Source: an uncultured Acholeplasmatales bacterium | GTDB taxonomy: Bacteria; Bacillota_I; Bacilli_A; Acholeplasmatales; Anaeroplasmataceae | Direction: 5' to 3' | Assembly (NCBI GenBank): GCA_944324705.1 | Contig: CALUXI010000001.1 | Span: forward strand, 62,001 to 126,000 | DNA length: 64,000 bases | Shown: positions 14,053 through 21,255 of the stretch, piece by piece | How the letters are laid out: the number at the start of each line of letters is the position of its first letter | Numbering within the stretch: the stretch's first letter is position 1 | The notes under the pieces: generated by a model | What the model was told of the DNA's origin: nothing | What the model saw: only the letters and a program-made list of their open reading frames with translations | Databases searched by the model: none | Position numbers and translations under genes: made by a program

Positions 14053-14128
14053 TGGTAGTCCATACCAGCATCGAACTGGTAATCTTCTCCTTGAGAGGGA
14101 GACGTGTTAACCATTCCACCAATGGACC
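14053..14128 (-). tRNA. tRNA-Glu (anticodon CTC)
   Basis: The minus strand folds as a 76-nt cloverleaf. Acceptor GGTCCAT pairs with ATGGACT (one G-U), anticodon stem TCTCC/GGAGA holds loop CTCTCAA, and the T-arm is ACCAG-TTCGATG-CTGGT. Discriminator A and an encoded CCA follow. Anticodon CTC reads GAG. A second Glu tRNA (TTC) is at 42011-42086 and gltX at 36164-37831. Confidence 0.92.
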
Positions 14129-14187
14129 AAAGCAAATAAGATTATATCATTTTTTTAATAACTTGCAATGATATAATCTCATTTAAT

Positions 14188-14943
14188 CTAATTATTTTTT
14201 CTATAACCTAACTTTTCAGAAATCAAATAACCTACTTCTTTGATTCTATTTCCTAAATAATCATAGTTATCATCTTTTGAATACATATCAGAAATAGAAA
14301 TAGCAGCAATACATTCACCATTATAGTTAAAGACTGGAGCAGCAAAACATAACATATGGTTTTCTACTTCCCTATTATCTATTGCATAACCTCTTTTTCG
14401 TGTCAATTCTAGTTCTTTATACAAATCTTCAACATTAGTTATTGTATTAGATGTTTTAGGAATAAAATTTATTTCAGATATAATTTGTTTAGCTTTATCT
14501 GTTGGCAAATAAGCTAATAAAATCTTACCTAAACCTGTATAATACAATTCTTGCCTTGTCCCAACATCACAAGTAGCTAATTTAGCCCCTGTACCTACAT
14601 GTTTAAACACATAAAGGACTTTATTTTTATCTAAAATCCCAACAAAGGCATTGCGATGCAATTCATCAGCTAGTGGTGGTAAAAACATCTTACATACATC
14701 AACAAAGTTTAAATGTTCAATATATTTCATCCCTAAAGTGTATGTTCCTGAACCTAAAACATATTTCTTATGGTTATATTGAGACTCACTAACTAAATTA
14801 AGCGAAACTAGGGTTTGGATTATATTAAATGCACTACTTTTAGGAATGTCTAATTTATCTGTTATTTCTTTTAAAGTGAGACCATAATCAGCCGTAGATA
14901 TTAAATCTAAAGCTTCAAAGGCTCTCATGATTGTTCTATTCAT
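14188..14943 (-). CDS. IclR-family transcriptional regulator
   Basis: 251 residues. The N-terminal winged HTH is at about residues 5-65 (YGLTLKEITDKLDIPKSSAF), followed by an effector-binding IclR domain (about 80-250; GTRQELYYTGLGKILLAYLP, AAISISD). IclR proteins of the KdgR type repress pectin/uronate genes and are released by 2-keto-3-deoxygluconate or related acids. It is the only regulator of the uronide locus, lies at the end of it and has its own consensus promoter, so it is the best candidate for binding the TTCATATATATGAA sites at 30.5 and 32.9 kb. That link is inferred. Confidence 0.9.
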   Translation of the reverse strand: MNRTIMRAFEALDLISTADYGLTLKEITDKLDIPKSSAFNIIQTLVSLNLVSESQYNHKKYVLGSGTYTLGMKYIEHLNFVDVCKMFLPPLADELHRNAFVGILDKNKVLYVFKHVGTGAKLATCDVGTRQELYYTGLGKILLAYLPTDKAKQIISEINFIPKTSNTITNVEDLYKELELTRKRGYAIDNREVENHMLCFAAPVFNYNGECIAAISISDMYSKDDNYDYLGNRIKEVGYLISEKLGYRKNN

Positions 14944-14995
14944 ATTTTCTCATTCCCCTCACTAGAAAACAAAACTAATATTGTCTCTAATTAGT

Positions 14996-15024
14996 ATTAT
15001 AACCCCCCCCCATAGATTTGTCAA
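14996..15024 (-). promoter_or_regulatory. Perfect sigma-A promoter of the IclR gene with a G9 spacer tract
   Basis: On the minus strand TTGACA (15024-15019) and TATAAT (15001-14996) are separated by exactly 17 bases, nine of which are consecutive G (15011-15003). Gain or loss of one G would shift spacing away from optimum. A degenerate relative is at 40475-40505. Confidence 0.85.
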
Positions 15025-15025
15025 C

Positions 15026-15040
15026 TTTTTATTATAAAAA
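15026..15040. promoter_or_regulatory. Palindrome next to the IclR -35 box
   Basis: TTTTTATTATAAAAA is a perfect 15-base palindrome around its central base, immediately upstream of the -35 box. A related TTTTATAGTAAAA lies about 40 bases further upstream. Possible autoregulatory operator, though AT-rich palindromes are common here. Confidence 0.35.
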
Positions 15041-15138
15041 CCATTATTTTGATGTTTTTTTCATAACATTTTATAGTAAAAAACGCTGTTATTACACGAA
15101 TTTTATCTTTTTTAAAAGGAAACTCAAATTTTAACTTT

Positions 15139-16299
15139 TTATAATAAATTTGTAAAAATAATTTTTAATAAATCATCAATATATTCATATTTTTTTACTA
15201 TATTAGTATCTTTAACCAAATCTAAAGAATAAGCTTCATATAAAGTTGGTAAAAGTGTTGCATTATCAAAATAAGTAACTTGTTCACCTTGCCAATTATC
15301 ATTAATAATTAAATTATCAACAATATATTTAATACCATCTTTTATATTTACTTTAACTTCCTTATAATACCAATCTAAATTATATAAATCATAACCATAA
15401 CTTTTAACGATTGTAGCTATATCATACATCCCTTTAAGGCCCATTAATGAATATGATTTTGATTTAGTTCTTGCTAGTTCTTTAGGCAATGAACCATCAA
15501 GAGCTATTTGTTTTATTAGTCTTTCATTAATAAAGAAATAAACTAACGACTTAATTTCTTTATTATTTTTAAAAATATCATATAAAACTAATAACAAAAA
15601 ATCATACATAGTACCATGATTATTACTTGCATCCCTTTCTTGTAAAGCAATATCAGAGTATCTTAACCAATCTAAAAATTTTCTTAACCAACCTAACATT
15701 TCAGCATAAAAATCTTTTTCTATTAAATTAAGCTCGTATAATGACTTTAATAATATTAATGTATATGTCATGTTAGCTGAAAAATCAATTATACCTATTC
15801 CTCTACCTGAATTAATACCTCTAATCATTTGAGCATGATTCATATTAGGAAACATTTTAGTATCTTTTTTTAAGAAAAACATAGTAAGTCTTCTTTTAAC
15901 ATCATAATAATATTCTCTATTTTCCGTTAAATAATAAAGTAATAATTCATAGTAAGTAATAAAACTAGTTTCTCTTAATCTATCTTTATCATACTTATCC
16001 CCTTCTGGGTTAGCATATCCATCTTTTTGAATATATGGTAAACCATTTGGTGTTTCAGAATTTGGCCAATAATAAGTTGCTAGAGAGATATAATTATGTT
16101 TGTTAATGCCATAACAATCTTTAATATCTTTATCAACAACTGTAAAATATGGTTTATGTTTTAAATAGCTTAACTTTTCAACTAATAAATTAATCTCATT
16201 ATTCTTGATATTCTTCTTTAATTTTATCAATCTATCTAATGTTAAGACAAAATAATGATTGACGGGATCAGTTTTAATAATCTCTTTAAAATAATCCAT
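15139..16299 (-). CDS. Alginate-lyase-family polysaccharide lyase (PL5/PL38-like)
   Basis: About 386 residues, an (alpha/alpha)-toroid of the alginate_lyase Pfam family that includes PL5 alginate lyases and PL38 glucuronan lyases. Signature blocks are NYISLATYYWPN...GLPYIQKDGYANPE, then INSGRGIGIIDFS and the catalytic-type NNHGTMYD. Beta-elimination of polyuronate would give unsaturated uronides. There is no signal peptide, so it should act in the cytoplasm on imported oligomers. The ATG at 16299 begins just past the SDR stop; an earlier ATG at 16323 would overlap that gene. It is the last gene of the long uronide operon. Confidence 0.8.
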   Translation of the reverse strand: MDYFKEIIKTDPVNHYFVLTLDRLIKLKKNIKNNEINLLVEKLSYLKHKPYFTVVDKDIKDCYGINKHNYISLATYYWPNSETPNGLPYIQKDGYANPEGDKYDKDRLRETSFITYYELLLYYLTENREYYYDVKRRLTMFFLKKDTKMFPNMNHAQMIRGINSGRGIGIIDFSANMTYTLILLKSLYELNLIEKDFYAEMLGWLRKFLDWLRYSDIALQERDASNNHGTMYDFLLLVLYDIFKNNKEIKSLVYFFINERLIKQIALDGSLPKELARTKSKSYSLMGLKGMYDIATIVKSYGYDLYNLDWYYKEVKVNIKDGIKYIVDNLIINDNWQGEQVTYFDNATLLPTLYEAYSLDLVKDTNIVKKYEYIDDLLKIIFTNLL

Positions 16300-16300
16300 A

Positions 16301-17050
16301 TTATAAGAAATCCTGTCCACCATTTACTTGAATGATTTCACCATCAATAAATGAGGCTTTTTCACTAACTAAGAATTCAATAACACTTGCTACTTCACTA
16401 GCTTGACCTAATCTCTTCATTAAAATATTGTTCTTAAATGATTCAAATAATGCAGGATTATTAATCTTAGTTTGTTGATGGAACGGAGTGTCAATAGTAC
16501 CAGGAGCCACACCATTTACTCTAATGTTATATTTAACTAATTCTTTTGCTAAAGCTCTAGTTAAAGTAATGATAGCTCCTTTAGCTGTTGCATATACACC
16601 AGCTCCTGCACCACCAGCATTCCAACCTGCGTTAGATGAGAAGTTGATTATTGATTGATTATGTCCTTTCTTTAATAGAGGTATAGCTGCTCTAGTTACA
16701 TAGAATACACTATCTAAATTTAAAGCTAATACTCTTCTATAAAAATCAGTTGGCATATCTTCAAAGCTTGAACGACCACCAAGACCACCAGCATTATTAA
16801 CAAGAACATCTAAATGATCATATTTTTGGCTTATTTTAGCCATATTTTCGTTTACTTCATTCTCATTAGTTACATCAAAATGATAGTAATCATATTTGAT
16901 ATTTTCCTTTTCTAATTCAGCTTTTGCTTGCTTTGCTTGTTCTTCATCAATACCATTAATAATAACAAAATAACCTGCTTTACCAAGTGTTTTAGCTGTA
17001 GCTAAACCAATACCACCTGTAGCACCTGTGATTAAACAAATTTTATCCAT
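16301..17050 (-). CDS. SDR-family reductase, KduD-like
   Basis: 249-residue short-chain dehydrogenase. NAD(P)-binding TGATGGIG is at residues 8-15, NNAGG follows strand 4, and the YATAK active site is near residue 153, with VAPGTIDTPF after it. In polyuronate loci this position is filled by KduD (2-dehydro-3-deoxy-D-gluconate 5-dehydrogenase) or the alginate-pathway DEH reductase, both yielding 2-keto-3-deoxygluconate. Its neighbours (KdgF-like cupin, lyases) support that role. FabG-type enzymes share the motifs, so the exact substrate is inferred. Confidence 0.82.
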   Translation of the reverse strand: MDKICLITGATGGIGLATAKTLGKAGYFVIINGIDEEQAKQAKAELEKENIKYDYYHFDVTNENEVNENMAKISQKYDHLDVLVNNAGGLGGRSSFEDMPTDFYRRVLALNLDSVFYVTRAAIPLLKKGHNQSIINFSSNAGWNAGGAGAGVYATAKGAIITLTRALAKELVKYNIRVNGVAPGTIDTPFHQQTKINNPALFESFKNNILMKRLGQASEVASVIEFLVSEKASFIDGEIIQVNGGQDFL

Positions 17051-17063
17051 TTTCTTTTTCCTC

Positions 17064-17393
17064 CTATTTTAAGAAATCTTTTCTTTCTGGTGTAAAGATG
17101 TCAATTAATGAACCTTCTTCAAGACAAACTGCCCCGTGAATAACATTTGGTTCTTTATAAGTAGAATCACCTGCACCTAATATTTTTTTAACACCATTAA
17201 TATTAAATTCAAATTTACCACTTATTATATAAGTACATTGTTCATGAAAATGTTGATGTAAATTACCTACTGCACCTTTTTTAAAATGTAATTCGCAAAC
17301 CATCAAATTTTCATTGTGAGCTAAAACCTTTCTAGTAACTCCCGGGTCAACCTCCTTTGCTTCAATATCTTTGTTAAAGAAATAATTTTGCAT
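17064..17393 (-). CDS. kdgF: Cupin protein, KdgF-like
   Basis: 109 residues, a single cupin barrel. Metal ligands are visible as HQHFHEQ (two His plus Gln) and a later His in EPNVIHGAV, with the connecting ISGKFEFNINGVKK. This is the KdgF arrangement. KdgF converts unsaturated uronates released by lyases and glycuronidases into linear ketonised acid (DKI/DEH). It sits between a lyase and the KduD-like reductase with only 13 bases or fewer between genes. Confidence 0.82.
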   Translation of the reverse strand: MQNYFFNKDIEAKEVDPGVTRKVLAHNENLMVCELHFKKGAVGNLHQHFHEQCTYIISGKFEFNINGVKKILGAGDSTYKEPNVIHGAVCLEEGSLIDIFTPERKDFLK

Positions 17394-19280
17394 TTACATG
17401 ACCTCCAATTTTATTTGATATTCTGCCTTTTGATTATAACTTCTTATAAGTATTGAAGTTCTTGTCTTATTGACAGGATTATCCATAGTTTTTAAGATGT
17501 ATAATTCTTTACCCTTTAAGGAAATATTTAAATTATATTTATAACTACCTTGACTTAGAACAATATCTAATTCATCTTTGTTAGTTATAACTTTTTTAAC
17601 ATCTAAAATATGTTCATAACCATTTTGCTTATAATTTAAACTTGCATCCTCTAAATTTAAATCACTAATTGTTATATCATTTTCTAAATGTAGTAAATAA
17701 TCAGCTGTGAACTTGTTATTACCTTCAATATTAAATTTGTCAATTATTCCATTAGGTAAAAGTTCAATCTCACGTTTATAATTAATACCATTATAAACAT
17801 CTAATGCTTCAGCTGCTAAATGATTACTATCATAAACTAGACACTTACCAGGACTAGTCTTAGTTTGATTTTCCCCATTACATACTACTGTATTATGGCT
17901 AACTGTCTTCTTAAACCATTCTTTATAAAGTTTAGATTGATAACCAGGATTTGACATATCACGCGAAATCAATTTGTCTTTATACATAATTTCAATATTC
18001 ATAATATCAGGGTGAGCATGACTAGGTCCATTTAGACCATATTTCATAAAGACATTAAAATTATCATTTCTTAACATTCCAAATTGACTATTTGGGTAAT
18101 TTTTAGTTAATTGTTTTACTTCTTTATAATTAGCAAAGTCAATATCCGTATTTAATAATAATCTTTCAAAAGATATCTCATTATTATAATAATATGGTTT
18201 AGATAATGGTAACGTTGTTCTTGGGGCTTTATTAGCTAAAATATTTTTAGTAATTTGACCTACTACATCATCTTCACCAAATATTTTTAAAGCCACTTGA
18301 TAAATATATTCATAAGTCTTTAAATTTATACTTGGCCAACCATCATTAGGATTTGGGAAGTAACCATTACTAAAAGCATAATGATATGCTTCTACAAACA
18401 TATTATGTAATATTCTTATTTCTGAACCAAATTCATAATTGTATATAGAACTAAATAAAGCTAAATTACTTACACCTTCTAAGGTAAAGAAATTATAGTG
18501 AATTGAGCCTTCATACCAAAAGTTATCTTTAGTTACGCCTTCTCTTAATTGTCTTCTAATATTGTAAGGACCATTAAAAGCAAAATCTATCATTTCTTTA
18601 TCGTCAAAAAATAATCCGATTACACCAATTGCTGAATTGTTCCAACATCTAATATTATGAATTTGATTTACTTGTGGTTTTAACAAAAGATACATTTCTT
18701 TAAACATCTTTTGGTAAATCATGTCTAAAAAATCTTTATCTAAATCAGATTTAACTATTTCTAAAGCACTAATCATTCTAATAGCTATTATTGATTCATT
18801 AAGACCTTGTGGTAAAATTCTACCACAACCCCATTTCATTTCATCATAACTATCGAATACTTCTCTTTCTTTATTATGAATCCTAAATTTAGTATAGTTT
18901 GTTGCGTAATAGCCAATTATTTCTTTAACAATATCTAAATATTTTTGTTCATTTAAAGCTTTATAAATAGCTGCCGCCTTCCAAGCTGTTAAAATGGCCG
19001 TATTACGGTAAAAATAAACCCAAACACCATCATATATTTCACTTTTAAAATTTTTATGACATACTTCACAAACATGATCATGTGGTTTATTTAAATCAAA
19101 AATAAGTCTTCCGCCATCATTATTACAAAAATAATAATGTCCCCATTCTGAATTAATACTTGGATCATCTTTAAAATTTTGCATAAAAGAATCTACTTCT
19201 TTTTGCATATTTAAAATCATATCTTGATATTTTTTATTACTTTTAATTGCTTCTTGATAATTATCATTTAAATAATTCAT
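17394..19280 (-). CDS. Heparinase II/III-family lyase
   Basis: 628 residues. The N-terminal two-thirds is an (alpha/alpha)-toroid (NIRCWNNSAIGVIGLFF, EGSIHYNFFTLEG). The C-terminal beta-sandwich carries the heparinase II/III signature HAHPDIMNIEIMYKDKLISR and KTVSHNTVVCNGENQ. Similar architecture occurs in PL12, PL15, PL17 and related families that act on heparan, alginate or other uronates. No signal peptide is present, so it is probably an intracellular exolyase for imported oligomers. Its ATG lies inside the end of the upstream lyase gene (17-base overlap). Confidence 0.87.
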   Translation of the reverse strand: MNYLNDNYQEAIKSNKKYQDMILNMQKEVDSFMQNFKDDPSINSEWGHYYFCNNDGGRLIFDLNKPHDHVCEVCHKNFKSEIYDGVWVYFYRNTAILTAWKAAAIYKALNEQKYLDIVKEIIGYYATNYTKFRIHNKEREVFDSYDEMKWGCGRILPQGLNESIIAIRMISALEIVKSDLDKDFLDMIYQKMFKEMYLLLKPQVNQIHNIRCWNNSAIGVIGLFFDDKEMIDFAFNGPYNIRRQLREGVTKDNFWYEGSIHYNFFTLEGVSNLALFSSIYNYEFGSEIRILHNMFVEAYHYAFSNGYFPNPNDGWPSINLKTYEYIYQVALKIFGEDDVVGQITKNILANKAPRTTLPLSKPYYYNNEISFERLLLNTDIDFANYKEVKQLTKNYPNSQFGMLRNDNFNVFMKYGLNGPSHAHPDIMNIEIMYKDKLISRDMSNPGYQSKLYKEWFKKTVSHNTVVCNGENQTKTSPGKCLVYDSNHLAAEALDVYNGINYKREIELLPNGIIDKFNIEGNNKFTADYLLHLENDITISDLNLEDASLNYKQNGYEHILDVKKVITNKDELDIVLSQGSYKYNLNISLKGKELYILKTMDNPVNKTRTSILIRSYNQKAEYQIKLEVM

Positions 19281-21255
19281 TGTTAACCTCTACTATATAA
19301 TTAGATTTAATATCTTTTTTCAATATAGAACTATTGTTATAATTGAAATAAGAACCATTAATAATTATTAACTTATCTTTAGCTACTACTAAAGCTTCAG
19401 CATCCGTAATATCTTTATTCAAATCTAAATATAATTTATCATCATTGATAATAATATAATCATTATCCTTTTCAATATTTAAATTATTAGTACTAATTAT
19501 TTCTAAAATATAACCATTATCCGTATTTATTTTATAACTTGTACCATATAAATTAGTCTTAACATAATTATCTGGTTCTTGAGTAGTCATAATACTTTTA
19601 ACTAAACATTCATTAGTTTCATAAGTAATATCATAATTAGAAAATACATAATGATACATTTTATATTCACTACCTTTATATAAATAACCATTTTTATATT
19701 TTCTTGCTATATAATCACTATTTAAATGACTTTCATAAATATGTTTAGTATCTGATTTAAAGACATTTAACAAAATAATATATTCCATTTTAGGCTTAAC
19801 TAATACGCTTCTTCTAACTTCTTTTAAATTTAAATCAAGCGGATACATATTAGTTGCTTCAGCATTAAATACTAAATAATTATCTTGATAAATTAAATTA
19901 GAAATACTACCCTTATAATCTAACGGATTATAATTATTATTTTTAATCAATCTCTCTTTAAAGCTTGCTAAATAACAATCATTAACGTCCATTTTATCTA
20001 ATAATTTACCATCAACCAATAATGAATTATGGCATAATGGCGATATATTTCTATTATAACCATCATCAATAGCAAAATAATCGTTACCCTTAGTAAAGAT
20101 ATAAGATAAATTATCAGGGTGATGATGTGATAAAGCCATAATCTTTAATGGATTTTTAAATTTTGTAAAAGCATTTACCCATTGGGTCGTACCACCAGGA
20201 TATGATGATTTCATGGCAAATACCTGACTATTAGCTAACCAACCATCTCTAATTACTACATAACCCAAATCAGAAAAATAACGCATCAATGGTAACTCAG
20301 CAATATTTTTACTTTTAATATTATTAGGATAAGCTAAATAACATAACCACATTTCAGGCATAATGCCCGGTTTTACATGACTCAATAATTGCTCTTTGTA
20401 ATATACATTTTTTAAAATATAATCAGCATACCATTTAGCATAACCATCATTATAAATATTAGCCGTTAAATAATATGTGAATAATGCATGTGAACTAAAT
20501 CTATCATGACAATCACCAAAATTTAATTGTCCTTCTAATGTACTATTAGTACTATATAACCTAAAATAAAATGTGTTTTCTAAATATTTAACTTCTTTAA
20601 AATAATCTTTATAACCCAGTTCTCTAATTAACCAAGCAGCAATAAATAACCACATTCCACCATAACGATGATAAGTTATACCTTCATAATTTGAACCATC
20701 ACTAGCTAAATTAGCAAATACAATAGCGAAATTGTTTAATGCTTCCTGAATATAATTTTCATTCTTTAAAACATATCCCGCTAATAACAAAGCTGTATGA
20801 TTAATCCAATTATGGTTTTGCCAATAATTTGTTGGCCAACCATTCCCTAAATTATTAATTTTGTATTCATAAATAATTTGAGCATGTTCCTTAATATTTT
20901 TATAATATACTTGTTTTTTAGAACTATTTAAGTCTTTATTTAAATAATCATAGCCATAACTTAAACCAAATAGTATGAATGAAGCAGATAGATCAACATT
21001 AACTAAATGGGCATTTCCCCATTTTTCGTACCTACAAACACCATCCATAAATCTAATAGCTTCATCTAAATATCTTTTTTCTTTAGTAATTTTATATGTT
21101 AAAGCTAAATTACAAATTGCCATTCCTAAATAAGTAGTTGAACAATTAGGGTGTTTTTCTGGTATGTCCATATTGAAATAAGTATTAGCTACTTCAATTA
21201 GTTTTTCTTTAATATTTTTACTTACTTTCTTCTTCTTGTCTAATAATATCGCCAT
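19264..21255 (-). CDS. Second heparinase II/III-like lyase
   Basis: 663 residues. The helical N-terminal toroid includes NYWQNHNWINHTALLLAGYV and EGITYHRYGGMWLF. The C-terminal sandwich carries LSHHHPDNLSYIFTKGND and CHNSLLVDG, equivalent to the HxHPD and HN motifs of heparinase II/III proteins. It has diverged from the 628-residue protein and probably cuts a different linkage. It lacks a signal peptide. The start overlaps the preceding membrane-protein gene by 38 bases and has AAGAGG upstream. It ends in TGA TAA. Confidence 0.83.
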   Translation of the reverse strand: MAILLDKKKKVSKNIKEKLIEVANTYFNMDIPEKHPNCSTTYLGMAICNLALTYKITKEKRYLDEAIRFMDGVCRYEKWGNAHLVNVDLSASFILFGLSYGYDYLNKDLNSSKKQVYYKNIKEHAQIIYEYKINNLGNGWPTNYWQNHNWINHTALLLAGYVLKNENYIQEALNNFAIVFANLASDGSNYEGITYHRYGGMWLFIAAWLIRELGYKDYFKEVKYLENTFYFRLYSTNSTLEGQLNFGDCHDRFSSHALFTYYLTANIYNDGYAKWYADYILKNVYYKEQLLSHVKPGIMPEMWLCYLAYPNNIKSKNIAELPLMRYFSDLGYVVIRDGWLANSQVFAMKSSYPGGTTQWVNAFTKFKNPLKIMALSHHHPDNLSYIFTKGNDYFAIDDGYNRNISPLCHNSLLVDGKLLDKMDVNDCYLASFKERLIKNNNYNPLDYKGSISNLIYQDNYLVFNAEATNMYPLDLNLKEVRRSVLVKPKMEYIILLNVFKSDTKHIYESHLNSDYIARKYKNGYLYKGSEYKMYHYVFSNYDITYETNECLVKSIMTTQEPDNYVKTNLYGTSYKINTDNGYILEIISTNNLNIEKDNDYIIINDDKLYLDLNKDITDAEALVVAKDKLIIINGSYFNYNNSSILKKDIKSNYIVEVNNELFK

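Follow-up and report, generated by a model that had tools for sequence, protein, structure and literature searches.

A putative phase-variable promoter with a poly-G spacer upstream of an IclR-family regulator gene in an uncultured Acholeplasmatales bacterium

Introduction

Among the bacteria in which a repeat lies in a promoter, the vlp genes of Mycoplasma hyorhinis belong to a related wall-less lineage, and the tracts of vlp and of Bordetella fim are poly-A or poly-C, with surface proteins as targets. In both systems, which are cited in PMC3899988, the repeat renders transcription phase-variable. Homopolymers placed in the promoter spacer itself are established in porA, fetA and opc (PMC2791445, PMC3899988), and in Neisseria meningitidis porA the passage from 11G to 10G and then to 9G lowers the amount of the surface protein 2-fold and 13-fold, respectively (PMC3639595). 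The statement, made in the preliminary description of the DNA studied here, that slippage in spacer tracts switches promoters in other bacteria has a precedent in porA (PMC3639595). In the gut commensal Bifidobacterium breve, G-tract slippage affects pili and mixtures of tract lengths are detected by deep sequencing, while promoter-spacer tracts are mentioned solely as unpublished (PMC9187656). The mga gene of Group A Streptococcus encodes a transcription regulator and has a poly-C slippage tract (cited in PMC11868660). The literature searched had nothing on promoters with a poly-G spacer in Anaeroplasmataceae, gut Clostridia or Saccharibacteria, which is weak evidence of novelty as most subscription journals lie outside it.

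Results

On the minus strand, positions 15024–14996 of the window (the whole 64-kb stretch of DNA analysed) read TTGACA-AATCTAT-GGGGGGGGG-T-TATAAT, a sigma-70-type promoter in which both hexamers are perfect. The -35 element TTGACA (15019–15024) and the -10 element TATAAT (14996–15001) are separated by a spacer of exactly 17 bp (AATCTAT-G9-T, 15002–15018), and, as in promoters of the porA type, a homopolymer lies between them, here a tract of nine Gs (15003–15011), a length that is the value from one assembly. The arrangement given in the preliminary description, two hexamers 17 bases apart with nine Gs in between, is therefore confirmed, on the minus strand. The window has a single copy of the full -35/G9/-10 pattern, which 100 shuffles never produced (0 expected), and the promoter is the only 12/12 sigma-70 match within 14100–15300. 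The end of TATAAT lies 52 bp from the ATG of the regulator gene, with a likely ribosome-binding site, GAGGGG, at 14955–14960 on the same strand. Directly past the -10 element is a perfect dyad, ACTAAT-N10-ATTAGT (14974–14995), a possible candidate operator for autoregulation; looser matches are no commoner than chance, so we did not accept it as an operator, though it is the sole perfect copy in the window. An invertible promoter was also rejected, since the inverted repeats found around 14996–15024 are imperfect AT-rich pairs, none of them convincing, and no suitable ones stand on both sides.

The gene behind this promoter is intact (14188–14943, minus strand) and encodes a protein of 251 amino acids in which the Pfam domains HTH_IclR (42.5 bits) and IclR_C (127.6 bits) both score over their cut-offs, which bears out its assignment to the IclR family. 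The nearest models are BhcR and KdgR and the protein scores well under both cut-offs, with 138.6 bits for KdgR against the NCBIfam equivalog cut-off of 275. Directly upstream on the same strand is an alginate lyase-like gene (15139–16323, Pfam Alginate_lyase), and this order is kept in genus relatives, where lyase C-terminal sequence precedes the IclR orthologues. No terminator-like site was found between the lyase gene and the IclR gene, so that read-through could set a floor to expression and may buffer a switch. Further upstream, at 16301–21255 and again on the minus strand, are genes with SDR, cupin, heparinase II/III-like (Hepar_II_III_C) and DUF4962 domains, the presumed targets of the regulator. 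Judged by their Pfam domains these neighbours suit a uronate-polysaccharide locus, for which ‘uronide locus’ is a fair name. We infer that the IclR protein controls the adjacent alginate/uronide genes: the earlier designation of a regulator of this locus draws support from the conserved gene position and from a KdgR-like similarity that stays under the equivalog cut-off.

The source genome (1.64 Mb in 55 contigs) was searched by pattern for all such tracts. It contains seven exact TTGACA-N17-TATAAT sites, two of which have a G9 in the spacer, and five runs of at least nine Gs, four of which are at most one base away from a TATAAT. These four G9/TATAAT promoters are the IclR promoter and those at C14:6088, C2:49467 and C4:74625; the products of the genes behind the last three carry an N-terminal export-type segment, and at the C14 locus the exported-protein gene is followed by a gene for a SipW-related signal peptidase I. 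The stretch 14995–15030 (minus strand) of the IclR promoter holds 35 bp (AAAAAGTTGACAAATCTATG9TTATAAT) identical to the promoter at G000:C14:6081-6115, the two loci being unrelated beyond that stretch, and GTTGACAAATCTATG is found in the genome at these two promoters only. Part of the identity is forced by the design common to both loci; the shared AATCTAT and extra T make copying between them the simplest reading, and the 35-bp identity with an exported-protein promoter suggests that the IclR promoter was copied between loci. A chimeric assembly at the 35-bp repeat was rejected because both flanks agree with the context of the IclR orthologues. The fifth run, a G10, is located in the KWAGG motif region of a Dam-like adenine methyltransferase gene (G000:C1:1230-2060, L245); as two further frameshifts disrupt this gene, which is either a pseudogene or the site of assembly errors, we did not retain its G10 as independent evidence of slippage.

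The design recurs in the family and in the class. The sequence GGGGGGGGTATAAT (G8-TATAAT) occurs at 40 sites in 14 of the 55 family genomes, with 0 in reversed controls, and the poly-C version CCCCCCCCTATAAT is absent from the same 55 genomes; at class level, sites of the G8-TATAAT type are present in 29 of 395 genomes, with one reversed control overall. Poly-G spacer promoters in Anaeroplasmataceae serve mainly exported proteins. A MutS domain is encoded in every one of the 55 family genomes, which led us to reject lost mismatch repair as the driver of these tracts and leads us to expect a moderate rate of slippage. A further genome of the class has, within 19 kb, seven promoters of the G8-or-longer/TATAAT type that all point the same way (G421:C6:8343-27036; L257 contains the first site); the phase-variable genes concerned probably form a tandem family.

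A pattern scan for TTGACA-N5-12-G8-N0-2-TATAAT in one genome per GTDB species returned at least 118 stretches. The matches listed are mostly from MAGs of gut Clostridia and Bacilli and include Saccharibacteria, Helicobacter and three isolate genomes with the poly-G design, those of Streptobacillus notomytis, Blautia luti and Pumilibacter muris. Chance may account for a few of the matches (Chloroflexi, Geobacter). Among the matches listed, tract length lies between G8 and G14 and the -35/-10 spacing between 14 and 21; in 103 of the 124 sites no base separates the tract from TATAAT. Genes behind the listed promoters are enriched for exported proteins: by a crude predictor, an N-terminal hydrophobic segment is present in 56 of 85 such genes versus 122 of 499 other ORFs located on those stretches (odds ratio 6.0, p = 3e-13). 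A PucR-type regulator gene is found behind TTGACAGAAAATTTC-G9-TATAAT in Blautia luti MSK.16.34 (L105), and an AraC-type regulator likewise lies behind a poly-G spacer promoter in L126. The IclR promoter, with its spacing of 17, belongs to a rare class of this cross-phylum set, as 17 is depleted among the listed sites (L027–L144), with 6 of 124 compared with an expectation of 20.5 under permutation of the G numbers (20,000 permutations, all giving more than 6), and also within the non-G lengths 7, 8 and 9 taken separately (p = 0.006, 0.013 and 0.019), all these statistics ignoring the relatedness of the sites. The depletion is absent from the Bacilli subset (9 of 38 at 17). If it is real, either the consensus genomes are mostly in non-optimal states or the optimum of a poly-G spacer is other than 17; poly-G DNA may have an optimum of its own.

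Tract length varies between homologous promoters. The clearest pair is a C2-type exported-protein promoter in two genus relatives, with G8 in G007 versus G6 in G002: the alignment (3,463 columns, 32 mismatches, four gaps, about 99% identity over 3.4 kb) has the G8/G6 difference as one of its gaps, and no substitution is present in the approximately 130 bp upstream of the tract or in the approximately 100 bp displayed downstream. The same alignment reveals that, relative to G002, G007 has a 36-bp tandem duplication across the start codon of this exported-protein gene (L276 versus L277). Among 21 pairs of homologous promoters whose identity across the junction is 80% or more, one of which (L203) is probably spurious, 10 differ in G number, and in five of these 10 the rest of the spacer is equal in length; some orthologous pairs have the same G number (G10/G10, G8/G8). 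Whole tracts are also gained or lost: in G005 the promoters of the two exported-protein orthologues have plain AT-rich spacers. The IclR orthologues of four genus relatives (G001, G004, G005 and G007; 76–81% identical) likewise have ordinary promoters with AT-rich spacers, so that the IclR tract is particular to the source species among those sampled. No second genome of the source species was found, the named records that match family loci being the same assemblies (L069/L018, L086/L235), and viral contigs were rejected as a source of strain variants, their nine matches being scattered and several of them probably due to chance.

Discussion

We consider it probable, by analogy with porA and from the design of the sequence, that the IclR promoter is a phase-variable sigma-70-type promoter whose transcription is switched by slippage in its G tract. 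Replication slippage in the G9 tract would add or remove single Gs, turning the -35/-10 distance of 17 into 16, 18 or another value, and this change would alter transcription of the IclR-family regulator in steps, as tract length does in porA. A clonal population would then consist of cells with differing levels of IclR and, if IclR controls the alginate/uronide genes, of cells that differ in their readiness for uronate polysaccharides. The switch originally proposed is supported by a non-random design, by G-count variation with fixed flanks and, at the other loci, by exported-protein targets, which are classical for phase variation; for the IclR tract itself we infer slippage and its effect on expression from these relatives. 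Against a switch at this gene are the lack of conservation of the tract there, as IclR orthologues do without it, and the nature of the target, a regulator where a surface protein is usual.

Part of the evidence could also be accounted for if the poly-G spacer were a fixed structural or regulatory element, in which promoter strength or dependence on a factor follows from the unusual shape of G-tract DNA, with slippage as a side effect. Slippage alone requires neither the placement of the tract on the non-template strand in all cases (poly-C never being found) nor its contact with TATAAT in 103 of the 124 listed sites, and several orthologous pairs do hold their G number. A fixed element is nevertheless difficult to reconcile with G numbers of 8 to 14 and spacings of 14 to 21 among the listed sites, which change within near-identical loci, and with targets that are typical of phase variation, and we regard it as unlikely. 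We judge it slightly less likely still that the IclR gene has recently received a copied promoter with a G9 present by accident, which slips as any G9 would while the output of IclR is buffered by read-through or autoregulation, so that no switch is under selection. The 35-bp identity with the C14 promoter, the tract-free IclR genes of relatives, the lack of a terminator-like site upstream and the possible operator dyad all agree with this scenario, whereas the perfect consensus elements, suitably spaced from a good ribosome-binding site, argue against it, and such promoters normally respond to changes in spacing (porA, PMC3639595). A sequencing or assembly artefact, affecting either the tract as such or its length, is very improbable: Illumina sequencing reportedly performs poorly at G tracts (PMC9187656) and the 55-contig assembly has a gene with a frameshift close to the end of a contig, but the tract is inside a 179-kb contig with both flanks in the IclR-orthologue context and the design recurs across independent assemblies, isolate genomes included, which leaves the exact count alone in doubt.

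The phase-variable promoter that we favour is a mechanism of a kind already described; the novelty lies in the IclR promoter as one of its members, in a regulator as target and in the breadth of recurrence. The recurrence before surface-protein genes in uncultured gut bacteria suggests that such switching is common outside the well-known pathogens. More tentatively, poly-G spacer promoters might constitute a phasome that is widespread among gut bacteria, largely uncultured ones (Anaeroplasmataceae, other Bacilli, Clostridia and Saccharibacteria), and might be able to move from locus to locus as a short module of about 35 bp, which would here have captured a metabolic regulator and made the use of uronate a bet-hedged trait. 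The anchored -35/poly-G/-10 pattern and its clean reversed control allow a direct census in uncultured commensals, for which metagenomic reads already available can serve as a check, and the isolates with the poly-G design make bench tests possible. If the IclR case is true, slippage diversifies carbohydrate use in addition to the cell surface.

Among described systems, porA is the closest to the IclR promoter, since poly-G lies between -35 and -10 in both and, in porA, the length of the tract sets the spacing and, stepwise, expression (PMC3639595, PMC2791445, PMC3899988). The two differ in phylum and in target, an outer-membrane protein for porA compared with an IclR-family metabolic regulator here, a surface structure being typical of porA-type systems and not strictly required; they also differ in that both hexamers of the IclR promoter are perfect consensus sequences. 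The vlp and fim systems similarly have a repeat in the promoter, but with poly-A or poly-C and surface targets instead of poly-G and a regulator. The pilus switches of B. breve share with the present locus a G tract in a gut commensal, but the B. breve tracts studied are in coding sequence. Finally, mga resembles the IclR case in that the target is a regulator and not a surface protein, but its tract sits in the gene and not in a promoter spacer.
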